From Neisseriaceae bacterium ESL0693 (GTDB lineage: Bacteria; Pseudomonadota; Gammaproteobacteria; Burkholderiales; Neisseriaceae): 64,000 nucleotides of DNA. The notes under the pieces are model-generated. The model had not been told where the DNA came from. It was given only the letters and a program-made list of their open reading frames with translations, and searched no databases. This document shows, in pieces, positions 1,569 to 16,711 of this stretch. Position 1 is the first letter of the stretch; every line of letters begins with the position of its first letter. Made by a program: the position numbers and the translations under genes. The DNA is taken from contig JAQTIE010000007.1 of the NCBI GenBank assembly GCA_029433475.1, forward strand, positions 186,001 through 250,000, read 5' to 3'.

Positions 1569-2087
1569 ATGTCTACCTCACAAATTAAAATCTGGGGATT
1601 GCCCGCCGAGGCACAGGAAAAATTAACCCTGATCGCAAAACAAAAAGTGCATAAAGCCAGTATTTCTCTTTTGGCTAAAACCTTATTAATGCAATTGCTG
1701 GAAACAACTGCTACTGTCCCTGAATCTGAAATATTAACTGAAGAAAGATACCGGCTGGAATTAAAACTCTCACCGGCAATGTATCACTATCTCAAAACCG
1801 TTGCGGCACAACAATACATGACACCTAACGCCGTGGCCGTCAACATTCTCAACAGCTATAGAGATCAACACCCGACTTTATCGGACAAAGAGGCTGAAGC
1901 ACTGTATCAGTCCAATTATCAGCTACTACGCATTGGCCGCAATCTGAACCAAATTGCCAGACAACTGAATATCGGTGAAGCCACCAGTCTGACCGCCCAG
2001 GAAATCCGGCAGTTACGTGAAATCATAGAACAACATACCGATAAAGTTAAAGACTTATTACTGGCTAATCAACAACGTTATTATTGA
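1569..2087 (+). CDS. mobC: MobC-like relaxosome accessory protein
   Basis: The 172-aa protein has a MobC-type core near residues 115-165, with RIGRNLNQIARQLN followed by a long helix (LREIIEQHTDKVKDLLL). MobC proteins bind oriT and help the relaxase open the duplex for nicking. The N-terminal half (residues 1-100) looks like two ribbon-helix-helix-type segments, which would suit DNA binding. It lies directly between ardC and the relaxase gene, the standard order in a MOBP module, and its stop codon overlaps the ribosome binding site of the relaxase. Confidence 0.8.
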   Translation: MSTSQIKIWGLPAEAQEKLTLIAKQKVHKASISLLAKTLLMQLLETTATVPESEILTEERYRLELKLSPAMYHYLKTVAAQQYMTPNAVAVNILNSYRDQHPTLSDKEAEALYQSNYQLLRIGRNLNQIARQLNIGEATSLTAQEIRQLREIIEQHTDKVKDLLLANQQRYY

Positions 2088-2095
2088 GGCAAACC

Positions 2096-3142
2096 ATGTC
2101 ACTACAAAATCGTATCGATGACTGGCTTTTGGGTTATAAAACCCATGCAGTCAATCAAAAAGATTCAGGCGGATTTGGTTCTCCAGGTAAATCACCCAAA
2201 TCCAGCAGTAAAAAACCACTCAAGCCAGGCTACGGTCTGGCTAATTTACGCGCTGCAGCTTTAAAACAACCCGAAGTGATGGTTAAGATTACCCGCAGAC
2301 AAAGCGGCAACAGTAACGGCTTAAAGGGCGTTCGCGGCCACATGGACTACATCAGCCGTCATGGCAAGATTGAAGTAGAGAATCAGGACGGTGAAATTCT
2401 GAAAGGCAAAAAAGCTATCCAGGAACAATTAAAAGACTGGCAGAAATTGGGCATTAAAGAAGAAAGTAACAAGCGAGAAGCATTGAACATTGTCCTATCC
2501 ATGCCTGCTGGCACACCGGCCAACGCAGTTAAAAATGCCGCCCGCGCATTTGCTGAAGACCAGTTTCTCGATCACCAGTACGCCTTTGCCCTTCATTCCC
2601 ACGCTGACAATCCGGACGAACCAGCGCACCCTCATGTCCATTTGTGTGTCTTGATGCGCAACCAATATGGCCAAAGGCTTAATCCACGGAAAAATGATCT
2701 GTATGAATGGCGGTTGCGGTTCGCCGAAAAGATGCGTGAACAAGGGATTCCCTGCGCTGCTACCCGCCGCCAGCATCGTGGCGTCACCCAGACAGAAAAC
2801 AGTACCATTAAAGCCATGAAAAAACGAGGTCATCTTGGCAAGGTGCAACAACGCCAAATCAAAGAGCTGATTGAAGCCTTGAAAACCAATGAACGGCCAA
2901 AGCATTTGTTTCTGAAAGAAGCCATGGAAACACGGGGCATCATTGTGAGTGAGTATAACAAGATATCCAAAGGGCTATACCAGGCTGGTTACAAAACGGA
3001 AGCAAAGATCATCAGCAAACTGGCAAAAGAGGTCAGTAAGGCTGGATTTGATACCAAAGCACAGGTTCAATTTGATCAGGTGCAATCTAAATTACAGCCT
3101 AAACAGGCAAATGACTTAGCAAATATTCCTACAGAACGATAA
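2096..3142 (+). CDS. MOBP-like relaxase
   Basis: This 348-aa protein is a relaxase, the enzyme that nicks oriT and carries the strand into the recipient. Motif I with the candidate catalytic tyrosine is in GHMDYISRHG (about residue 85). Motif III, the metal-binding histidine cluster, is HSHADNPDEPAHPHVHLCV (about residues 160-180), followed by the usual YEWRLRFAEKMREQGI helix. There is no helicase or primase domain, so it is a short mobilization-type relaxase; the C-terminal 80 residues are basic and helical. The ATG at 2096 follows GAGG; the alternative TTG at 2084 overlaps the mobC stop. The stretch after it ends in a strong hairpin. Confidence 0.85.
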   Translation: MSLQNRIDDWLLGYKTHAVNQKDSGGFGSPGKSPKSSSKKPLKPGYGLANLRAAALKQPEVMVKITRRQSGNSNGLKGVRGHMDYISRHGKIEVENQDGEILKGKKAIQEQLKDWQKLGIKEESNKREALNIVLSMPAGTPANAVKNAARAFAEDQFLDHQYAFALHSHADNPDEPAHPHVHLCVLMRNQYGQRLNPRKNDLYEWRLRFAEKMREQGIPCAATRRQHRGVTQTENSTIKAMKKRGHLGKVQQRQIKELIEALKTNERPKHLFLKEAMETRGIIVSEYNKISKGLYQAGYKTEAKIISKLAKEVSKAGFDTKAQVQFDQVQSKLQPKQANDLANIPTER

Positions 3143-3425: not shown

Positions 3426-4133
3426 ATGCCAATTACTCGCCAAGATTGTAATGCGTTAATAAACTCATTATCCCAACCTCGTTTAAATACTTATTTGAGG
3501 GAAACTAAAAATGATATATTAAAAGCAATAGAATTATACCAATTGAATGCAGAGGTTTCCGCTGCCTTTTTACCTTCATTGAATATTTGTGAAATTACTA
3601 TCAGGAATGCTATTTCTGAAGCTCTAAAAAAACGATACGGCGATGAATGGGCACGGAATCCAGGTTTCGAAAGATCTCTACCTAATGAAATTAGATCCAC
3701 TTTAATAAATTTGACAAAAAATGGTATAAAGAAAGAGAGAAATGGAAAAGAGCAAAAAGAAAATTTAAGTAATGATGATATCATTGCACAATTAACTTTA
3801 CATTTTTGGCAAAAATGTTGTTCAACAGGTTTTGAAAGTTCTTTATGGAAACAAAATTTGTATGTTTCTTTCCCTAATTTGCCAAAAGAGGAAAACACAA
3901 TAAGAGAAAATATCAAACTTCTACAAGGTTCTATTAATCAAGTAAGACATTTAAGAAATAAAATTGCTCATCATGGGAATATTTTTAAATTAAATTTAAT
4001 TGGTTATTACCAAGAAATTATTCAACTGACGGGATACCGATGCCCTGTTACAAAGTCGTGGTTAGAATCCAATACATGGTATTTACCTAATCTTATTCAT
4101 AAAATTGACCGTTTATTACCCAATAAAAATTAA
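3426..4133 (+). CDS. Abi-like protein with HEPN motif
   Basis: The 235-aa protein resembles the Abi-like family that is often mis-labelled 'CAAX protease'. It has an N-terminal helical region (LSQPRLNTYLRETKND), a conserved ITIRNAISEALKKRYG segment (about residues 55-72), and a C-terminal RNKIAHH (about residue 180) that fits the RN-x3-H motif of HEPN ribonucleases. HEPN/Abi proteins typically act in phage defence or as toxins by cutting RNA. No antitoxin gene is adjacent. It is much more AT-rich than the operon before it and has no evident Shine-Dalgarno, so translation may be weak or leaderless. The promoter palindrome suggests repression. Confidence 0.65.
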   Translation: MPITRQDCNALINSLSQPRLNTYLRETKNDILKAIELYQLNAEVSAAFLPSLNICEITIRNAISEALKKRYGDEWARNPGFERSLPNEIRSTLINLTKNGIKKERNGKEQKENLSNDDIIAQLTLHFWQKCCSTGFESSLWKQNLYVSFPNLPKEENTIRENIKLLQGSINQVRHLRNKIAHHGNIFKLNLIGYYQEIIQLTGYRCPVTKSWLESNTWYLPNLIHKIDRLLPNKN

Positions 4134-4156: not shown

Positions 4157-4285
4157 CCGCAGTAGGGGGCAAAATATTAGACCCATGCAAAATGCTGCTT
4201 TCGGTGCATTTAGCGTGGGTTTAATATTTTGGGGGCGTGGGGACGTTGTGACGGAACACAGTGAAGTGCAACGGGGCTGCTGCGG
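4157..4285. repeat. 129-bp structured direct repeat, copy 1
   Basis: This 129-bp, GC-rich element is bounded by CCGCAG and CTGCGG, so its ends pair. Inside is a long hairpin (AAAATATTA...TAATATTTT outer part, ACCCA/TGGGT and AAATGC/GCATTT inner parts, TTCG in the loop) and a second stem CGTTG/CAACG. The same element recurs at 5253-5381 with five differences and equal length. It sits at the 3' side of the following leftward ORF, between the Abi-type gene and that ORF. It could be a recombination site, a structured RNA or a transcription barrier. Confidence 0.85.
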
Positions 4286-4289
4286 AAAA

Positions 4290-4319
4290 AAATAAAAGTC
4301 AGATATCTGACTTTTATTT
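4290..4319. terminator. Perfect 30-bp palindrome between convergent genes
   Basis: The 15-bp arms (4290-4304 and 4305-4319) are perfectly complementary with no spacer: AAATAAAAGTCAGAT and its complement. With A runs on one side and T runs on the other it would work as a bidirectional terminator between the rightward Abi-type gene and the leftward ORF at 4336. Confidence 0.65.
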
Positions 4320-4335
4320 CCTTGTTATTTGCTTT

Positions 4336-4806
4336 TTAAAATCCCCATTTCATCACTCTACTTTCATCAAAAATCGGCAATTCCGTCAAATCTTTATCCC
4401 ACCAAGTACCATGCGCACAACGGCGACCCGATTCAATTAAAAAACCAATATATCGCTCTATGGTTTGCGCTTGTATGAGTTTAAAAACTTTAACAATTGG
4501 GTGGTCGTCATAATCTTCTGAATTCGTGCATTGATAACACACAAAAGCAGCTAACCAAGCTATTTGTAGACGATCATAAATATCTTTATAGTTCCAGTGG
4601 TAATATTTAAATACATATTCTCCTGTTTCCTCCATTTCTTCAATACTCACTTTTCTTTTATTCAGAACGGATTGTAAGTTTAATTTTCTTATACAATAAA
4701 TCCATTTATTAATAGAAAATGTATCATTTTTATCAAATACTTTAGAATCAATTAAAACAGAAATTAAAGCGTTAATTGTTTCTTCATTTACAACCATACA
4801 AGACAT
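4336..4806 (-). CDS. Hypothetical protein in the first repeat-flanked unit
   Basis: This 156-aa protein is not recognised. It is helical and soluble-looking, with several aromatic clusters (FKYYHWNYKDIYDRLQIAW at about residues 66-84) and a C-terminal CAHGTWWDKDLTELPIF stretch containing conserved-looking Cys, His and Trp. No signal peptide or clear membrane segment is seen. The start ATG follows AAGGAAAG. The gene lies between a 129-bp structured repeat on its 3' side and a 283-bp inverted repeat on its 5' side. The methylase-like gene next to it has the same arrangement, suggesting shared behaviour. Confidence 0.65.
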   Translation of the reverse strand: MSCMVVNEETINALISVLIDSKVFDKNDTFSINKWIYCIRKLNLQSVLNKRKVSIEEMEETGEYVFKYYHWNYKDIYDRLQIAWLAAFVCYQCTNSEDYDDHPIVKVFKLIQAQTIERYIGFLIESGRRCAHGTWWDKDLTELPIFDESRVMKWGF

Positions 4807-4909
4807 ATCAAACTTTCCTTAAATAAAATATTTATATTTTGGTCAGGTAACTTCCCTGCCCTATTCTTTTGAACCGGCACACAACTCTTTTCATCAAAAA
4901 AACTTCTTT

Positions 4910-5192
4910 GAACCCATTCGACAAACTCAATTTTTAAAGAACATTAGCCATTCCGGTTTTTTCGGAGCCGCTTCTTACCAATCCATGATTCCGTCAATGG
5001 CGAGCCAAAAATGCCCACAAGGATTTTGGTTGTACTGGCGCGGGTAACACGGGTGCAACCAAAACCGGAGGCTTGTCCTTGTGGGCATTTTTGGCTTGAC
5101 ATAGGATTCATGGAAGGATTGGTAATAAGCGGCCTTACCCGAAAAAACCGGAAAGGCTGATTTGCCAGTAATTGAGTTTGTGGAATGGGTTC
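4910..5192. repeat. Giant nested inverted repeat (283 bp)
   Basis: Three nested pairs of arms line up: 4910-4932 with 5170-5192 (22 of 23 paired), 4946-4984 with 5116-5158 (small bulges), and 5003-5032 with 5056-5096 (one bulge on the right). The centre is about 23 nt. Together they form one very long hairpin upstream of the leftward ORF at 4336. It includes GC-rich blocks such as TTCCGGTTTTTTCGG in an AT-rich setting. An ORF of about 100 codons can be read across it on the minus strand, but that is a by-product of the palindrome. Confidence 0.85.
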
Positions 5193-5252
5193 TAGGAATT
5201 TTTGCTATGGGTGTAAGAATTAAAATAATCGGCCACGCAGTGGCCACAATAA

Positions 5253-5381
5253 CCGCAGTAGGGGGCAAAATATTAGACCCATGCAAAATGCTGCCTTCGG
5301 TGCATTTAGCGTGGGTTTAATATTTTGGGGGCGTGGGGGCGTTGTGGCGGAACGAAGTGAAGTGCAACGGGGCTGCTGCGG
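5253..5381. repeat. 129-bp structured direct repeat, copy 2
   Basis: Same length and boundaries (CCGCAG...CTGCGG) as the copy at 4157-4285, with five substitutions, so 124 of 129 positions agree. It lies at the 3' side of the methylase-like gene, as copy 1 lies at the 3' side of the 156-aa ORF. The 1,096-bp distance between copies is exactly one unit: repeat, ORF and giant inverted repeat. Confidence 0.85.
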
Positions 5382-5399
5382 CAGTGGCGAAAGCCACTG
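5382..5399 (-). terminator. Small hairpin after the methylase-like gene
   Basis: CAGTGGC-GAAA-GCCACTG forms a 7-bp stem 9 bp downstream of the methylase-like gene's stop and directly abuts the 129-bp repeat. There is no strong T tract on the minus strand, so termination activity is only likely. Confidence 0.4.
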
Positions 5400-5408
5400 T
5401 TTAATTAA

Positions 5409-6239
5409 TCAGAACAAAGCCAATTGTTCTAAAAGGTCGATTTTTTGTTGATTATCAATCTGAGAAGAGGATATCAACACTGGCTCTGGGTCTTCAGTAT
5501 TCATAACTAACGGTTCTTCTTTTACAACATCAGTATCAGCCTCTTTAATTTTTTCTTTTGTTTTTATTTTATTTTCAAAATTATAAGCCACCCATGCTGA
5601 TGTGCGCCACACAGTATGATATTTGTTAGTGGCAGAATTACCGTGTAGAATTTTTGCTGGTATGCCGTATAACTCACATTGAATATAGCACATCAAAACA
5701 CAGGTTAAATCAATGTCTGCGCCCATAACACACATATTTCTTTCAATGTCATAACCCAAATCTGCTACTTTTTGTGCAAAAGTAATTATATTTACGCCAC
5801 TTCCGCAGGTCGGTTCCAGTACACTAACAAATGATTGTTCGGCTATTTTTGCTTTTATGGCCTCACCAGTTGCGGTTAATTCAGCTAATATTTTTGCAAT
5901 AGATAATGGTGTGAAATATTGGTCTTTTGATTCATCTCCTAAATTTAACTGCATGAAGACATCCCCTAATAAATCAATATACTCACTTTCCTTAGCCGCT
6001 TGAATAGCGAGAATAACTAACCCTAAGAGAGAGGAAAAATCCTTAAATTCATCTTGGGTATATTTTCTTTTGATTTGATTAAACAGTTCTTCTAAATCAG
6101 AATCACAACCATACCGGTTATATAAAGCAATTCCGGACATCTGAATAAAATCCCTGAAAACTTCCCGAACAAAATATTTACGTGAAAACCCATTTAATAA
6201 TTTGACCATCTGTTTTTTATATTCATCAACCTTATCCAT
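5409..6239 (-). CDS. N-6 DNA methylase-like protein lacking the NPPY motif
   Basis: The 276-aa protein has the AdoMet-binding core of HsdM-type N6-adenine methylases: a helical N-terminal part (residues 1-110), a segment QYFTPLSIAKILAEL (about 110-125), motif I LEPTCGSGVN (about 147-156), motif II ADIDLTCVLMC and HGNSATNKYHTVW. The catalytic [DN]PP[YF] that should follow HGNS is absent. The C-terminal 60 residues are Lys/Glu-rich and low-complexity. Similar orphan proteins occur on plasmids and integrative elements. It may be inactive and bind DNA or AdoMet, or use another motif. No restriction or specificity subunit is nearby. The start follows AGGGCAGGGA. Confidence 0.7.
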   Translation of the reverse strand: MDKVDEYKKQMVKLLNGFSRKYFVREVFRDFIQMSGIALYNRYGCDSDLEELFNQIKRKYTQDEFKDFSSLLGLVILAIQAAKESEYIDLLGDVFMQLNLGDESKDQYFTPLSIAKILAELTATGEAIKAKIAEQSFVSVLEPTCGSGVNIITFAQKVADLGYDIERNMCVMGADIDLTCVLMCYIQCELYGIPAKILHGNSATNKYHTVWRTSAWVAYNFENKIKTKEKIKEADTDVVKEEPLVMNTEDPEPVLISSSQIDNQQKIDLLEQLALF

Positions 6240-6265
6240 GTTCCCTGCCCTTTTTTCAAATTAAT

Positions 6266-6484
6266 AAAACCTTTGCGGCGGGTGCCGCTGTGTTGTGATG
6301 GCGTTAAGAATTTTCAGAACCATAAAGTCCAGACTGGCCTGGTATGGCTTTCATCTTCTTTCGGTACGCTTGCGTGGTGGAAAAGGTGGAAGACGTGCCA
6401 GGACACTTGTCTTGGTCTGGACTTTATGGTTCTGAAAATTTAGACATCAGCAAACAACACAGCGGCACCCGCCGCAAAGGTTTT
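6266..6484. repeat. Giant nested inverted repeat (219 bp)
   Basis: The outer arms 6266-6295 and 6455-6484 are perfectly complementary over 30 bp and GC-rich (core GCGGCGGGTGCCGC). The inner arms 6310-6334 and 6415-6439 are perfectly complementary over 25 bp. The centre holds a weaker stem (CTTC/GAAG and CCTGGTATG/CGTGCCAGG). It lies immediately upstream of the methylase-like gene, mirroring the inverted repeat upstream of the 156-aa ORF, but with unrelated sequence. Confidence 0.88.
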
Positions 6485-6494
6485 TAAATCTTAA

Positions 6495-6568
6495 GCCGAG
6501 GATCGGCGTTTCCGCGAATGCGGAATATTGGCAAAACGGGTCGTTTTGCCGGCGCAAGCCTATCCCGC
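6495..6568. other. oriT: Candidate oriT: hairpin cluster with IncP-like nic sequence
   Basis: Three hairpins follow each other: GCCGA/TCGGC (6495-6507), TTCCGC-GAAT-GCGGAA (6510-6525) and GGCAAAACG/CGTTTTGCC (6530-6550). Nine bases later comes CCTATCCCGC (6559-6568), one base from the CCTATCCTGC of IncP-type nic sites. The position before a TraK-like gene matches IncP, where oriT adjoins traK. The nic match is short, so this remains a candidate. Confidence 0.4.
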
Positions 6569-6810
6569 GTTTAATTTTTTCATTTGTTTTTTTGTTGTTT
6601 TTCAGAAATGGAACGCGGCCAACTTTTAATTAGAGTTAATTTATACGTAACTTATAGGTAATTTATAAATTTTCTAATTAATATTGATTTATTTCCTGTT
6701 TATTTTATTAAATATTTAGATTATATTGTTATATACAAGGATATATAGACTATATTTGTATTTATTTTATGTTACTATCGGGTAATATATAGTTAATTGG
6801 AAGCAATCTA
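6569..6810. other. AT-rich leader of the TraK-like gene
   Basis: This non-coding stretch is extremely AT-rich (long runs of A, T and TA steps) and contains several possible -10 boxes close to the TraK-like start. No further structured element, tRNA or conserved ORF is visible. It could contain the promoter of the TraK-like gene and a melting region beside oriT. Confidence 0.4.
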
Positions 6811-7134
6811 ATGGATATAAAAGAATTTATGCAAGAAGTTAAACCAGCTGCAAGAAAATCAAAACTAGAACCATTTCAGTCTGATATCATGACGCTTTAT
6901 CAAAATGGTTATAATTTGAATCAAATATTAATTTTCTTAGAGCGGAACAATATCCAGATTAGCAAACCTGGCCTTCAAAGATTTATTAAGAGAATAAGCA
7001 ACCACTCTCCGTTAAAACCAACTCAACAAAGTCAAATGATCATAAAACACGATACACAACAAAGCCAGAAACCTAGTTCAGACAAACCAGTGCCTTCTTG
7101 GGCAAATGGTTTCAATAGAGATGAAATGTTCTAA
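6811..7134 (+). CDS. TraK-like oriT-binding protein
   Basis: The 107-aa protein has one conserved block at about residues 17-55 (LEPFQSDIMTLYQNGYNLNQ then ILIFLERNNIQISKPGLQRF). This matches the pattern of IncP TraK and related small mobilization proteins: D-[IV]...GY...I..[FY]L....I..S...[FL]..[FY]. TraK binds oriT and aids relaxosome formation. The C-terminal half is Gln/Ser/Pro-rich. A good ribosome binding site (GGAAG) precedes the ATG. The pairing with TraL- and TraM-like genes at 13.9-15.1 kb fits an IncP/IncQ-2-like mobilization set split by inserted modules. Confidence 0.5.
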   Translation: MDIKEFMQEVKPAARKSKLEPFQSDIMTLYQNGYNLNQILIFLERNNIQISKPGLQRFIKRISNHSPLKPTQQSQMIIKHDTQQSQKPSSDKPVPSWANGFNRDEMF

Positions 7135-7251: not shown

Positions 7252-7533
7252 TCAAGCCATTGCCGAATGCAATGGGATAACATTTCTGTGTGTTTTTTGT
7301 TCTGCCTGCCAGAGATCATAACTTGTCTGCATGCCGGCCCAAAGAGCACTGCTGGTACCTAACAATATTGACAACCTTACTGCCATATCGGCTGAGATAG
7401 CCGCTCTGCCATTAAGTATGCGAGACAGTGCTGCCCGAGTAACGCCCAAACGTCTGGCAGCTTCTGTAATGCTGGTTTCACCTAGATATTCACGTAATAT
7501 TAAACCTGGATGGGGGGGATTGTGCATCGGCAT
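7252..7533 (-). CDS. higA: HigA-family antitoxin
   Basis: This 93-aa protein is a HigA/VapI-type XRE antitoxin. It begins with the typical [12 protein letters not shown] and carries a helix-turn-helix ([20 protein letters not shown], about residues 22-41). It continues with [22 protein letters not shown]. It neutralises HigB and represses the operon. It lies 18 bp after higB in the usual toxin-first order. Confidence 0.92.
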
Positions 7534-7551
7534 TATTATTCCTTTCTAACC

Positions 7552-7830
7552 TTAATGATAATCCTGATAATCAACAATTTCAGCATTTTGTCCTATAAAT
7601 TTAAAGGTAATACGCCAGTTACCATTGACTTTAACACTCCAGTGATCTTTCAGATTCCCTGATAATGAATGCAATTGCCAGCCTGCTGCGTTCATATCCT
7701 CAGGCTGCAATGCATGATCCAATGTAAATAAAATCAGAGCCAATTTATTAGCATGAGAGGTTTGAATACCTGATTTATTACCAGTCAGGAAAAACCGCTC
7801 TAGTCCTTTATGTTTAAAATTTTTAATCAT
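7552..7830 (-). CDS. higB: HigB-family toxin (ribosome-dependent mRNA interferase)
   Basis: The 92-aa RelE/ParE-fold protein shows HigB landmarks: IKNFKHKGLERFF at the start, a central HSLSGNLKDHWSVKV block, and the C-terminal WRITFKF...VDYQDYH, with the basic and aromatic residues used for mRNA cleavage on the ribosome. With higA it forms an addiction module that stabilises the element. Upstream, around 7840-7860, the minus strand holds a TATAGT -10 and a TGTA...TACA partial palindrome, a likely HigA operator. Confidence 0.92.
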   Translation of the reverse strand: MIKNFKHKGLERFFLTGNKSGIQTSHANKLALILFTLDHALQPEDMNAAGWQLHSLSGNLKDHWSVKVNGNWRITFKFIGQNAEIVDYQDYH

Positions 7831-15350: not shown

Positions 15351-15719
15351 ATGGTTAATCTGATTACTTATACAGTCATTGATGCTGCAAAAATTTGTCA
15401 TTGTCATGAAGAAACTATTAGAAGGCATATTCGATCAGGTGAATTGGCTGCCCGAAAAGTAGGTAAAGGTTATTGTATTACAGCGAGTGCGCTTGACGCT
15501 TTTCTAAATGATTTGCAAAATGAACAAGTGCAAGTATCACTCGAACGTAAAGGAGTGAGCAAATGTCTCTTTATCAAAGAGAAAACGGATTTTGGTATAT
15601 TGACGTCATCACGCCAGATAAAGAGAGAATTAGACGCTCTACTGGCACCAGAGACAAAAGGCAGGCGGAAGAGTTGCACGATAAAATCAAGCATGATTTG
15701 TGGCGACAAAGTCGTTTGA
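15351..15719 (+). CDS. Excisionase-like helix-turn-helix protein
   Basis: The first 60 residues form a MerR/Xis-type winged helix: YTVIDAAKICHCHEETIRRH then RSGELAARKVGKGYCITASALDAFL. This is the DNA-binding fold of excisionases that direct integrase toward excision. The remaining residues (about 71-122) are read in another frame through the start of the integrase gene, overlapping it by 157 bp. The tail looks like a shadow of the integrase sequence and may not be needed. The coupling would tie excisionase and integrase synthesis. Confidence 0.7.
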   Translation: MVNLITYTVIDAAKICHCHEETIRRHIRSGELAARKVGKGYCITASALDAFLNDLQNEQVQVSLERKGVSKCLFIKEKTDFGILTSSRQIKRELDALLAPETKGRRKSCTIKSSMICGDKVV

Positions 15720-16585
15720 AGGAAACACCTAAATATACCTGGGACGAAGCAGTATTAAGATGGATTAAAGAGAAAAAAGATAAAAGGAGTCTTAAAGCTG
15801 ATTTAAGCAGACTTAGAAACCTGCCAGAATTAAGGGGGATTTTTCTGCATGAACTATCCAGAGACAATATTATGCATGTAATCAGATCGAAGCCCTGCGG
15901 TGATAGTACTAAAAATCGCTATATTGCGGTTGTCCGCAGCATCTTGAATGCATGTCTGAAAGACTGGGGCTGGCTTAATGAAGTACCATATCTGAAACAG
16001 TATCAGGAACAGAAAAAGCGTATTCGCTGGTTAAAACCAAAGGAAGCTGAACGACTGATTAATTGCCTCCCTGACTACATGGCAGCGATGGCCAGATTCA
16101 GTCTTGCAACAGGGCTAAGGCAGCGAAACGTGTTCAATTTAAAATGGGAACAAATCAATATGGTGACAAAAGTGGCAACTTATTATCCTGATGAGATGAA
16201 ATCAGGCCACGCGTTGGGTATTGCATTAAATGAAACTGCAATGAAGGTATTACTTAATCAGACGGGTAAACATCGTGAATACGTGTTTGTTCATTCGAGA
16301 AACAGACCGGTCAAAACACTGAACGACAAAGTCTGGCATAAAGCTCTAGATAAAGCAGGCATTGAAAATTTCCGATGGCATGACCTTAGACACACATGGG
16401 CAAGCTGGCTGGTACAAAGCGGCGTATCTTTGTATGCTTTGAAAGAAATGGGCGGTTGGGAATCAATAGAGATGGTACAGAAGTATGCACATTTATCACC
16501 GGCTCACCTACATCAACATGCCAAAGCCATTGATGAAATAATGGAAAAAAGCCACAAATCTGACACAGACAGAAATGTGGCTTAG
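15563..16585 (+). CDS. int: Tyrosine-family site-specific integrase
   Basis: The 340-aa recombinase inserts and excises the element. An N-terminal Arm-type part (SLYQRENGFWYIDVITPDKE) and a core-binding domain (about residues 55-145) precede the catalytic domain. Visible catalytic residues are Arg in ATGLRQRN (about 190), a likely Lys in PDEMKSGHALG, His-x-x-Arg in WHDLRH, the Trp of GGWES and the nucleophile Tyr in QKYAHLSP. AAAGGAG precedes the ATG. It ends 50 bp from the 3' end of tRNA-Lys, the expected arrangement for an integrase next to its attachment site. Confidence 0.95.
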   Translation: MSLYQRENGFWYIDVITPDKERIRRSTGTRDKRQAEELHDKIKHDLWRQSRLKETPKYTWDEAVLRWIKEKKDKRSLKADLSRLRNLPELRGIFLHELSRDNIMHVIRSKPCGDSTKNRYIAVVRSILNACLKDWGWLNEVPYLKQYQEQKKRIRWLKPKEAERLINCLPDYMAAMARFSLATGLRQRNVFNLKWEQINMVTKVATYYPDEMKSGHALGIALNETAMKVLLNQTGKHREYVFVHSRNRPVKTLNDKVWHKALDKAGIENFRWHDLRHTWASWLVQSGVSLYALKEMGGWESIEMVQKYAHLSPAHLHQHAKAIDEIMEKSHKSDTDRNVA

Positions 16586-16635
16586 AAATTAAATCAGAAA
16601 TATACAATTAACTCATTGATCTGATTTTAAAAATC

Positions 16636-16711
16636 TGGTGGGTCGTCAGGGGATCGAACCCTGGACAAATGGATTAAGAGTCCACTGCTCTACCAACTGA
16701 GCTAACGACCC
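16636..16711 (-). tRNA. tRNA-Lys (CTT anticodon)
   Basis: A full cloverleaf can be read on the minus strand: acceptor GGGTCGT/ACGACCC, D arm with AGCTCAGTTGGTAGAGC, anticodon loop CTCTTAA giving anticodon CTT (reads AAG), T arm CAGGG-TTCGATC-CCCTG, discriminator A and encoded CCA. Its 3' end faces the integrase gene, so the tRNA 3' half is the probable att core of the island. Confidence 0.95.

Follow-up and report, generated by a model that had tools for sequence, protein, structure and literature searches.

Why should two single genes, one after the other, each lie between a structured DNA repeat and a giant inverted repeat? This arrangement was reported in a first-pass annotation of a 64,000-nt stretch of Neisseriaceae bacterium ESL0693 (GCA_029433475.1, JAQTIE010000007.1:186,001–250,000, forward strand; "the window"), the leftmost 16.7 kb of which are the right part of an integrated integrative and conjugative element (ICE) of about 40 kb. 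We refer to the 129-bp repeat as EL, to the first giant hairpin as h1, and to the second as H2. EL and H2 are conserved one-strand folds that bound a gene module beside a nic-like motif, as seen from covariation, a fixed order of parts, and a sister ICE from which both are missing. Two such units, EL1–ORF156–h1 and EL2–F1–H2, follow one another in the window, where ORF156 and F1 are leftward genes. Our favoured reading, to which we grant an even chance, is that EL and H2 delimit, one at each end, a gene module linked to transfer in Neisseriaceae MOBP-like ICEs, and that both function as single-stranded DNA folds of the transferred strand.

The two EL copies (4157–4285 and 5253–5381, + strand) are direct repeats of 129 nt each with complementary ends and 96% identity. 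Folded as RNA, the + strand of the first copy reaches −56.9 kcal/mol (z = −6.0) and that of the second −57.2 kcal/mol (z = −5.3), which none of 200 shuffles equalled. The two consecutive units of repeat, leftward open reading frame (ORF), and giant hairpin are real. Stem P1 closes a three-way junction that holds the long variable stem P2 and stem P3, with G-tracts at the junctions. Searching the 83 genomes of the family by blastn, we matched the right half of EL in nine relatives and in the own genome (10 of 83), and full-length reading of the nine relatives revealed versions of about 144 nt with the same design. A covariance model (R1) found EL in 18 of the 83 genomes, in 29 rows; two of these are both strands of one rearranged copy (G024:C135; genomes, contigs, and loci carry our own G, C, and L numbers), leaving 28 places. 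At the latter copy (G024:C135:29298-29484; L019/L012), the 3′ half of EL is duplicated and inverted around P2, as though by a template switch at the hairpin. Under stricter filters, with few candidates scored per genome so that distant copies could escape, the own genome was the sole match among 369 genomes of a class sample, and 3 of 399 genomes matched in an order sample, all three from the family. A pattern scan of a genome collection returned 59 stretches, including clear EL copies in eight Neisseria records (nine copies; Neisseria weixii, N. dentiae, N. wadsworthii, N. sicca, and three other Neisseria), the remainder being chance-like. In a plasmid collection of 72,556 records, there was no match for the window region, a Neisseria EL, or a Neisseria H2, and viral contigs yielded nothing by protein scan or pattern scans. 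Rfam 15 at gathering score gave no match over EL or H2; its sole detections were tRNA, in the window and at one of the three loci of relatives scanned, and a low-threshold scan gave chance-like matches.

The fold itself is conserved among these copies. Over 27 distinct rows, in an alignment fitted to the model and hence biased towards it, 94.6% of cells are paired, both partners vary in 31 of 47 pairs, and the covariation score is 0.443, compared with 0.194 (standard deviation 0.010) when shuffled and at most 0.112 when slid; a free MAFFT alignment gave compensated changes in 23 of 47 pairs. The junction strands consist almost wholly of G, with at least four G-tracts of at least four in 18 of 27 rows, and judging from this composition the core possibly forms a G-quadruplex. 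Rows short of four such tracts are G014 (three G in the last tract), G080 (no third tract), the two readings of G024:C135, an internally deleted copy in G016, and four decayed copies (G036:C44, G049:503986, G024:C21, and G010:1968801). Solitary EL copies are mostly decayed, except for both copies at G020:C20, which are intact.

The other end of the module, H2, spans 6266–6484 (+ strand), exactly as first annotated, and consists of two nested perfect arms, one of 31 bp and one of 26 bp; its z of −14.35 was equalled by none of 200 shuffles. The hairpin upstream of ORF156, h1, occupies 4899–5203 (+ strand) rather than the 4910–5192 given at first, and its 326-nt fold has a z of −13.0 (none of 100 shuffles). 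Both are giant hairpins, which the annotation had described as different in sequence but alike in size class and place. A search of the 83 family genomes found h1 in the own genome only, whereas H2 forms a family. With the H2 model, h1 scored 41 bits, yet wrong-strand H2 copies scored 35–64 bits, and we claim no kinship between the two. The H2 model (R2) identified 20 places in 16 of the 83 genomes, in + sense; the raw tally of 18 counts two weak genomes (G077 and G035), and the match in G030 covers just 72 nt. R2 detected 3 of 399 genomes in the order sample, identical to the three with EL. EL and H2 occur together in 15 genomes, EL alone in G014, G038, and G080, and H2 alone in G037. Compensated changes affect 21 of 96 pairs in the H2 arms (nine sequences), and when five stretches were scanned with a 220-nt window, H2 was the most extreme hairpin in each; h1 ranked second in the own genome. 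At G038:C8 (L152), H2 was seemingly deleted between its outer left arm and the likely origin of transfer (oriT), with EL and the genes kept, and this locus represents a natural H2-minus variant.

For a fold of equal importance to either strand, the paired sites should hold G·T and A·C equally often. On the + strand, we counted G·T and A·C at 166:17 for EL and 60:1 for H2, and the + strand of H2 folds better in every copy compared. The G·T excess indicates that the folded molecule is the + strand or its RNA copy, and not the mRNA of the leftward genes. A structured leader RNA, one of the functions first considered, is rejected on grounds of strand, since the conserved folds are those of the strand opposite to the ORFs. 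As a control, we analyzed the leading region of F, in which strong hairpins occur at about 8.1 and 13.5 kb, preceding ssb and preceding genes that we take to be ygeA and ygeB. These sites coincide with the places given for Frpo2 and Frpo1 (PMC9849209). The template strand folds better there by about 4–6 kcal/mol, and it is preferred in 7 of 9 strong 220-nt windows and in 11 of the 14 best 250-nt windows of this region.

Among 28 oriented stretches, those with the transfer module have their parts in one common order: the relaxase comes first, followed by variable cargo, EL, the leftward genes, and H2, and then by small hairpins, the nic motif, and the conserved gene F0. Relaxase family F9 occurs in 11 stretches, always rightward and always left of EL. 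In all 18 paired loci (17 in relatives and that of the window), which are spread over three Neisseriaceae genera, EL and H2 lie on the same strand, 916–2794 nt apart, so that the proposed unit of structured repeat, leftward gene or genes, and giant hairpin does recur. All genes in between are leftward and number one to four (F4, F7, F1, F3, or others); one ORF per unit, as described at first, applies in the window (4336–4806 and 5409–6239), and in relatives the number varies over this range. The gene set between EL and H2 changes, while both ends stay.

Right of H2, the likely oriT (6493–6570, + strand) comprises small hairpins and the nic-like motif GCCTATCCCGCGT at 6558–6570, which we take to resemble an RP4-type nic site. 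By RP4-like polarity, the + strand would be the transferred strand and the H2 side would enter last. The pattern GCCTATCCYGCGT gave 21 matches in 20 genomes (17 genomes), against five for a reversed-pattern control. Of the 21 matches, 17 (G049:967206 counted by hand) have a same-strand H2 copy 106–118 nt to their left; the four matches outside this spacing are in G024:C157, G038, G077, and G037. Two of these loci are natural variants. The sister ICE G024:C157 (L171) possesses primase, MobC, relaxase, nic motif, F0, and the ParA-side genes, and lacks EL, H2, and the leftward F-module genes, in place of which it carries toxin–antitoxin-like genes. In this ICE and in G038, similarity in the oriT region starts, by eye, just right of where H2 ends elsewhere. 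These variants show that the presence of EL goes with that of the leftward genes and not with that of the primase, and that the nic region is kept without need of H2.

Taken as folded single-stranded DNA, the two ends could work as follows. On the incoming strand, H2 would fold into a duplex-like hairpin that RNA polymerase uses, similar to Frpo; the leftward genes would be transcribed from it off single-stranded DNA, and the RNA started at H2 may prime the second strand. H2 would accordingly be a candidate single-strand promoter or priming origin, and we infer that it works like one of these. The distance from the base of H2 to the start codon of F1 is 26 nt in the window and about 25–37 nt in the relatives checked, and this short distance makes a transcription start inside H2 likely. 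A weak promoter-like pair of 12 of 19 H2 copies, though not of that in the window, has its −10 box on the internal bubble. More speculatively, EL, at the 3′ end of the operon, might terminate or hand over transcription by means of its stems and the G-tract core in the template strand. The proposal of EL as a marker of the unit's far end is weaker than that on the role of H2, and most speculative is that EL ends single-strand transcription or is a priming site. Transcription insulation had been one of the functions first considered, and our preferred role for EL would be its single-strand counterpart. The complete form, i.e., a two-ended single-strand transcription unit in which H2 starts RNA polymerase and EL with its G-quadruplex core would stop it and leave a primer end, is tentative, and we would sooner doubt than believe it.

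Several features of H2 are known from other systems. The Frpo and single-strand initiation (ssi) promoters of F and ColIb-P9 also consist of a long hairpin directly upstream of genes templated by the transferred strand, their template strand folds better as well, and methylase-type genes lie downstream in both. For the methylase M.EcoGIX, early expression driven by a single-strand promoter has been described (PMC7736820), and methylases are common in leading regions (PMC11541004). In contrast to Frpo, H2 has no sequence match to F, lies on the last-entering side, and has weak promoter boxes. The single-strand origins (sso) of rolling-circle replicating (RCR) plasmids and ICEBs1 resemble H2 as strand-specific hairpins near the nick. 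In most RCR plasmids, the sso is upstream of the nick, as stated in the section consulted (PMC4595007), and the position of H2 matches this; sso1 of ICEBs1, unlike H2, is downstream of oriT. H2 also differs from an sso in that a gene block and EL follow it, priming being a candidate function of H2. Since the location of H2 differs from that of Frpo and fits most rolling-circle ssos, we say that H2 works like these elements and do not file it as Frpo. For EL, no counterpart is known from the portions of the Frpo and ssi literature consulted. A non-exhaustive literature search, which is no proof of novelty, recognised no published account of EL or of the unit.

A number of observations weigh against this interpretation. 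The base-pair polarity would be identical for an RNA copied from the + strand, and in F, 2 of the 9 strong 220-nt windows prefer the opposite strand. By RP4-like nic polarity, H2 would be on the last-entering side, unlike Frpo in leading regions, and the H2 model had no match in the leading region of F. The promoter boxes are weak: TGGACT-17-TTTAAC ranks within the best three pairs for 12 of the 19 H2 copies, that of the window not included. The two strands of h1 fold about equally well, with almost no strand preference, and the first unit may therefore not work like the second. Furthermore, G038 retains EL and leftward genes without H2, the EL copy of G080 misses one G-tract, and in N. dentiae (G020:C20; L026) two intact EL direct repeats surround a zeta-toxin gene without H2. 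The latter pair adjoins an insertion sequence (IS)-like transposase.

The neighbours of EL were surveyed at 19 of the 28 places. The right neighbour is F4 in 16 and F1 in 2 of the 19 (18 together), at one fixed place in the ICE, whereas the left neighbours are of eleven kinds, with a zeta toxin in eight copies (zeta was assigned by Pfam in one member; the names UmuC, VapC, and LysR were given by eye). In the window, an Abi_2/HEPN-like gene (3426–4133) is immediately left of EL copy 1. The nine places outside the survey are the second copy of G016, G024:C135, G010:1968801, G020:C20 (twice), G036:C44, G049:503986, G024:C21, and G080. Known right neighbours occur at the second G016 copy and G024:C135 (F4 and F1) and at G010:1968801 (F4 remnants), and the other six places have other neighbours or none of F4 and F1, four of the six copies being decayed or divergent. 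Terminator-like hairpins were found on the left of EL in 9 of 19 copies and on the right in 2 of 19, and these counts do not bear out the idea of EL as an element enclosed by terminators on either side. F43, considered as a rightward gene, was rejected as an antisense frame over F4, F7, and F1.

Of the alternatives, the one that survives best is that EL is a small structured RNA made from the + strand, an ICE-borne regulator, with H2 as a separate oriT-side hairpin. The base-pair polarity fits such an RNA as well as it fits single-stranded DNA, and the left gene is directed towards EL in 14 of 19 copies. However, it is directed away in the other five, a terminator-like hairpin precedes EL in eight further copies, the left flanks differ save for their A/T richness and share no promoter-like sequence by eye, and no Rfam family matches; we consider this RNA unlikely. 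EL might instead be an ssi-like priming or primosome-assembly site on the transferred strand, served by the ICE primase or by the host, and not an end of transcription. Sites of this kind occur in other plasmids, the EL fold is on the transferred strand, and a Toprim primase is carried by these EL/H2-type ICEs. Since G024:C157 has primase, relaxase, and nic motif yet no EL, and since EL tracks the leftward genes, this role seems quite unlikely to us.

A double-strand insulator or bidirectional terminator between converging genes would agree with the convergence on either side of EL at most loci and with the A-rich left and T-rich right flanks of several copies; it is very unlikely, as the 9 copies mentioned already have a terminator-like hairpin on their left and a two-way duplex function leaves the one-strand polarity unexplained. 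Integron attC sites resemble EL in being folded one-strand sites with genes between them, but differ in that EL has a fixed place in the ICE and mostly the same right-hand genes, and no site-tracking recombinase was seen. No integron integrase was identified beyond the tyrosine integrase of the ICE, and no search directed at IntI was made. The least credible alternative, EL as a recombination border (integron-like gene capture, which the first-pass annotation had put forward, or cargo exchange by homologous recombination between EL copies), could draw on the diversity of left neighbours and on the direct EL repeats around ORF156–h1 and around the zeta-toxin gene of G020:C20, but is highly improbable given one ICE plan with a fixed place and the same right-hand families, a pattern that the annotation itself had counted against capture, the differing unsurveyed copies being mostly decayed or divergent and the integrase seen being the ICE's own near tRNA-Lys.

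Regarding the encoded proteins, the product of ORF156 (4336–4806, − strand; 156 aa) belongs to no family, and no relative was found in the other 82 family genomes or in viral contigs. The second gene, F1 (5409–6239, − strand; 276 aa), had been called methylase-like, in agreement with a Pfam N6_Mtase score of 35.9 bits (cut-off 20.4). F1 has a methylase-like S-adenosylmethionine (SAM) region, and the motif [ND]PP[YFW] is present in none of 20 rows, some of which are halves of split genes. The protein, annotated elsewhere as N-6 DNA methylase, is methylase-like with a putative activity. Its C-terminus reads QLALF in the window and QLxLF in 14 of 20 rows, and resembles a sliding-clamp binding motif. 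Relatives of F1 occur in 2,096 plasmid records, and the five that were fetched had no comparable giant hairpin just upstream.

The remaining genes of the ICE are consistent with a conjugative element. Within the window, the + strand encodes the anti-restriction protein ArdC (313–1557; Pfam ArdcN and MPTase-PolyVal), MobC (1569–2087; Pfam MobC), a MOBP-like relaxase (2084–3142; Pfam Relaxase; NCBIfam MobP1 at 97.6 bits, under the cut-off of 200), F0 adjoining oriT (6811–7134), and an integrase (15563–16585; Pfam Phage_integrase) beside a tRNA-Lys identified by ARAGORN. A HigB-like toxin and helix-turn-helix (HTH) antitoxin pair (7252–7830) lies in the likely leading region. The right attachment repeat, derived from the tRNA-Lys 3′ end, is located at 16634–16683; this repeat of about 50 bp is present twice on the contig, about 40 kb apart. 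Two partial copies of the tRNA-Lys end lie left of the ICE (G000:C23:161431-161479 and 162437-162494), one of which looks like the left attachment site, and the other may be the mark of an older insertion. Left of the window are a type IV secretion system (T4SS) set (VirB4, VirB6, VirB8, VirB9-/VirB10-type proteins, and a VirB11-type ATPase), a coupling protein, and SSB. By its relaxase, VirB T4SS, coupling protein, tRNA integrase, and attachment repeats, the host element is a Neisseriaceae ICE of the MOBP type with mating-pair formation of type T (MPF_T), the MobP1 score being below its cut-off. Its gene plan resembles that described for ICEriNK (Tn6744) and ICENmu (Tn6745) of Neisseriaceae: these ICEs have a MOBP-like relaxase, a VirB-type T4SS, and a terminal integrase, and they vary most between relaxase and integrase (PMC7371117). 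The words oriT and hairpin are absent from its main text (PMC7371117).

The known single-strand promoters come from a small number of well-studied plasmids. To our knowledge, termination of single-strand transcription and second-strand priming in the ICEs of other bacteria are poorly known. The compact arrangement in 18 loci, together with natural variants that lack H2 or the module, makes both questions testable, and the EL and H2 covariance models offer a means of finding further copies. If H2 does start and EL does stop transcription, conjugative elements would possess a kind of terminator confined to the single-stranded state of their DNA.

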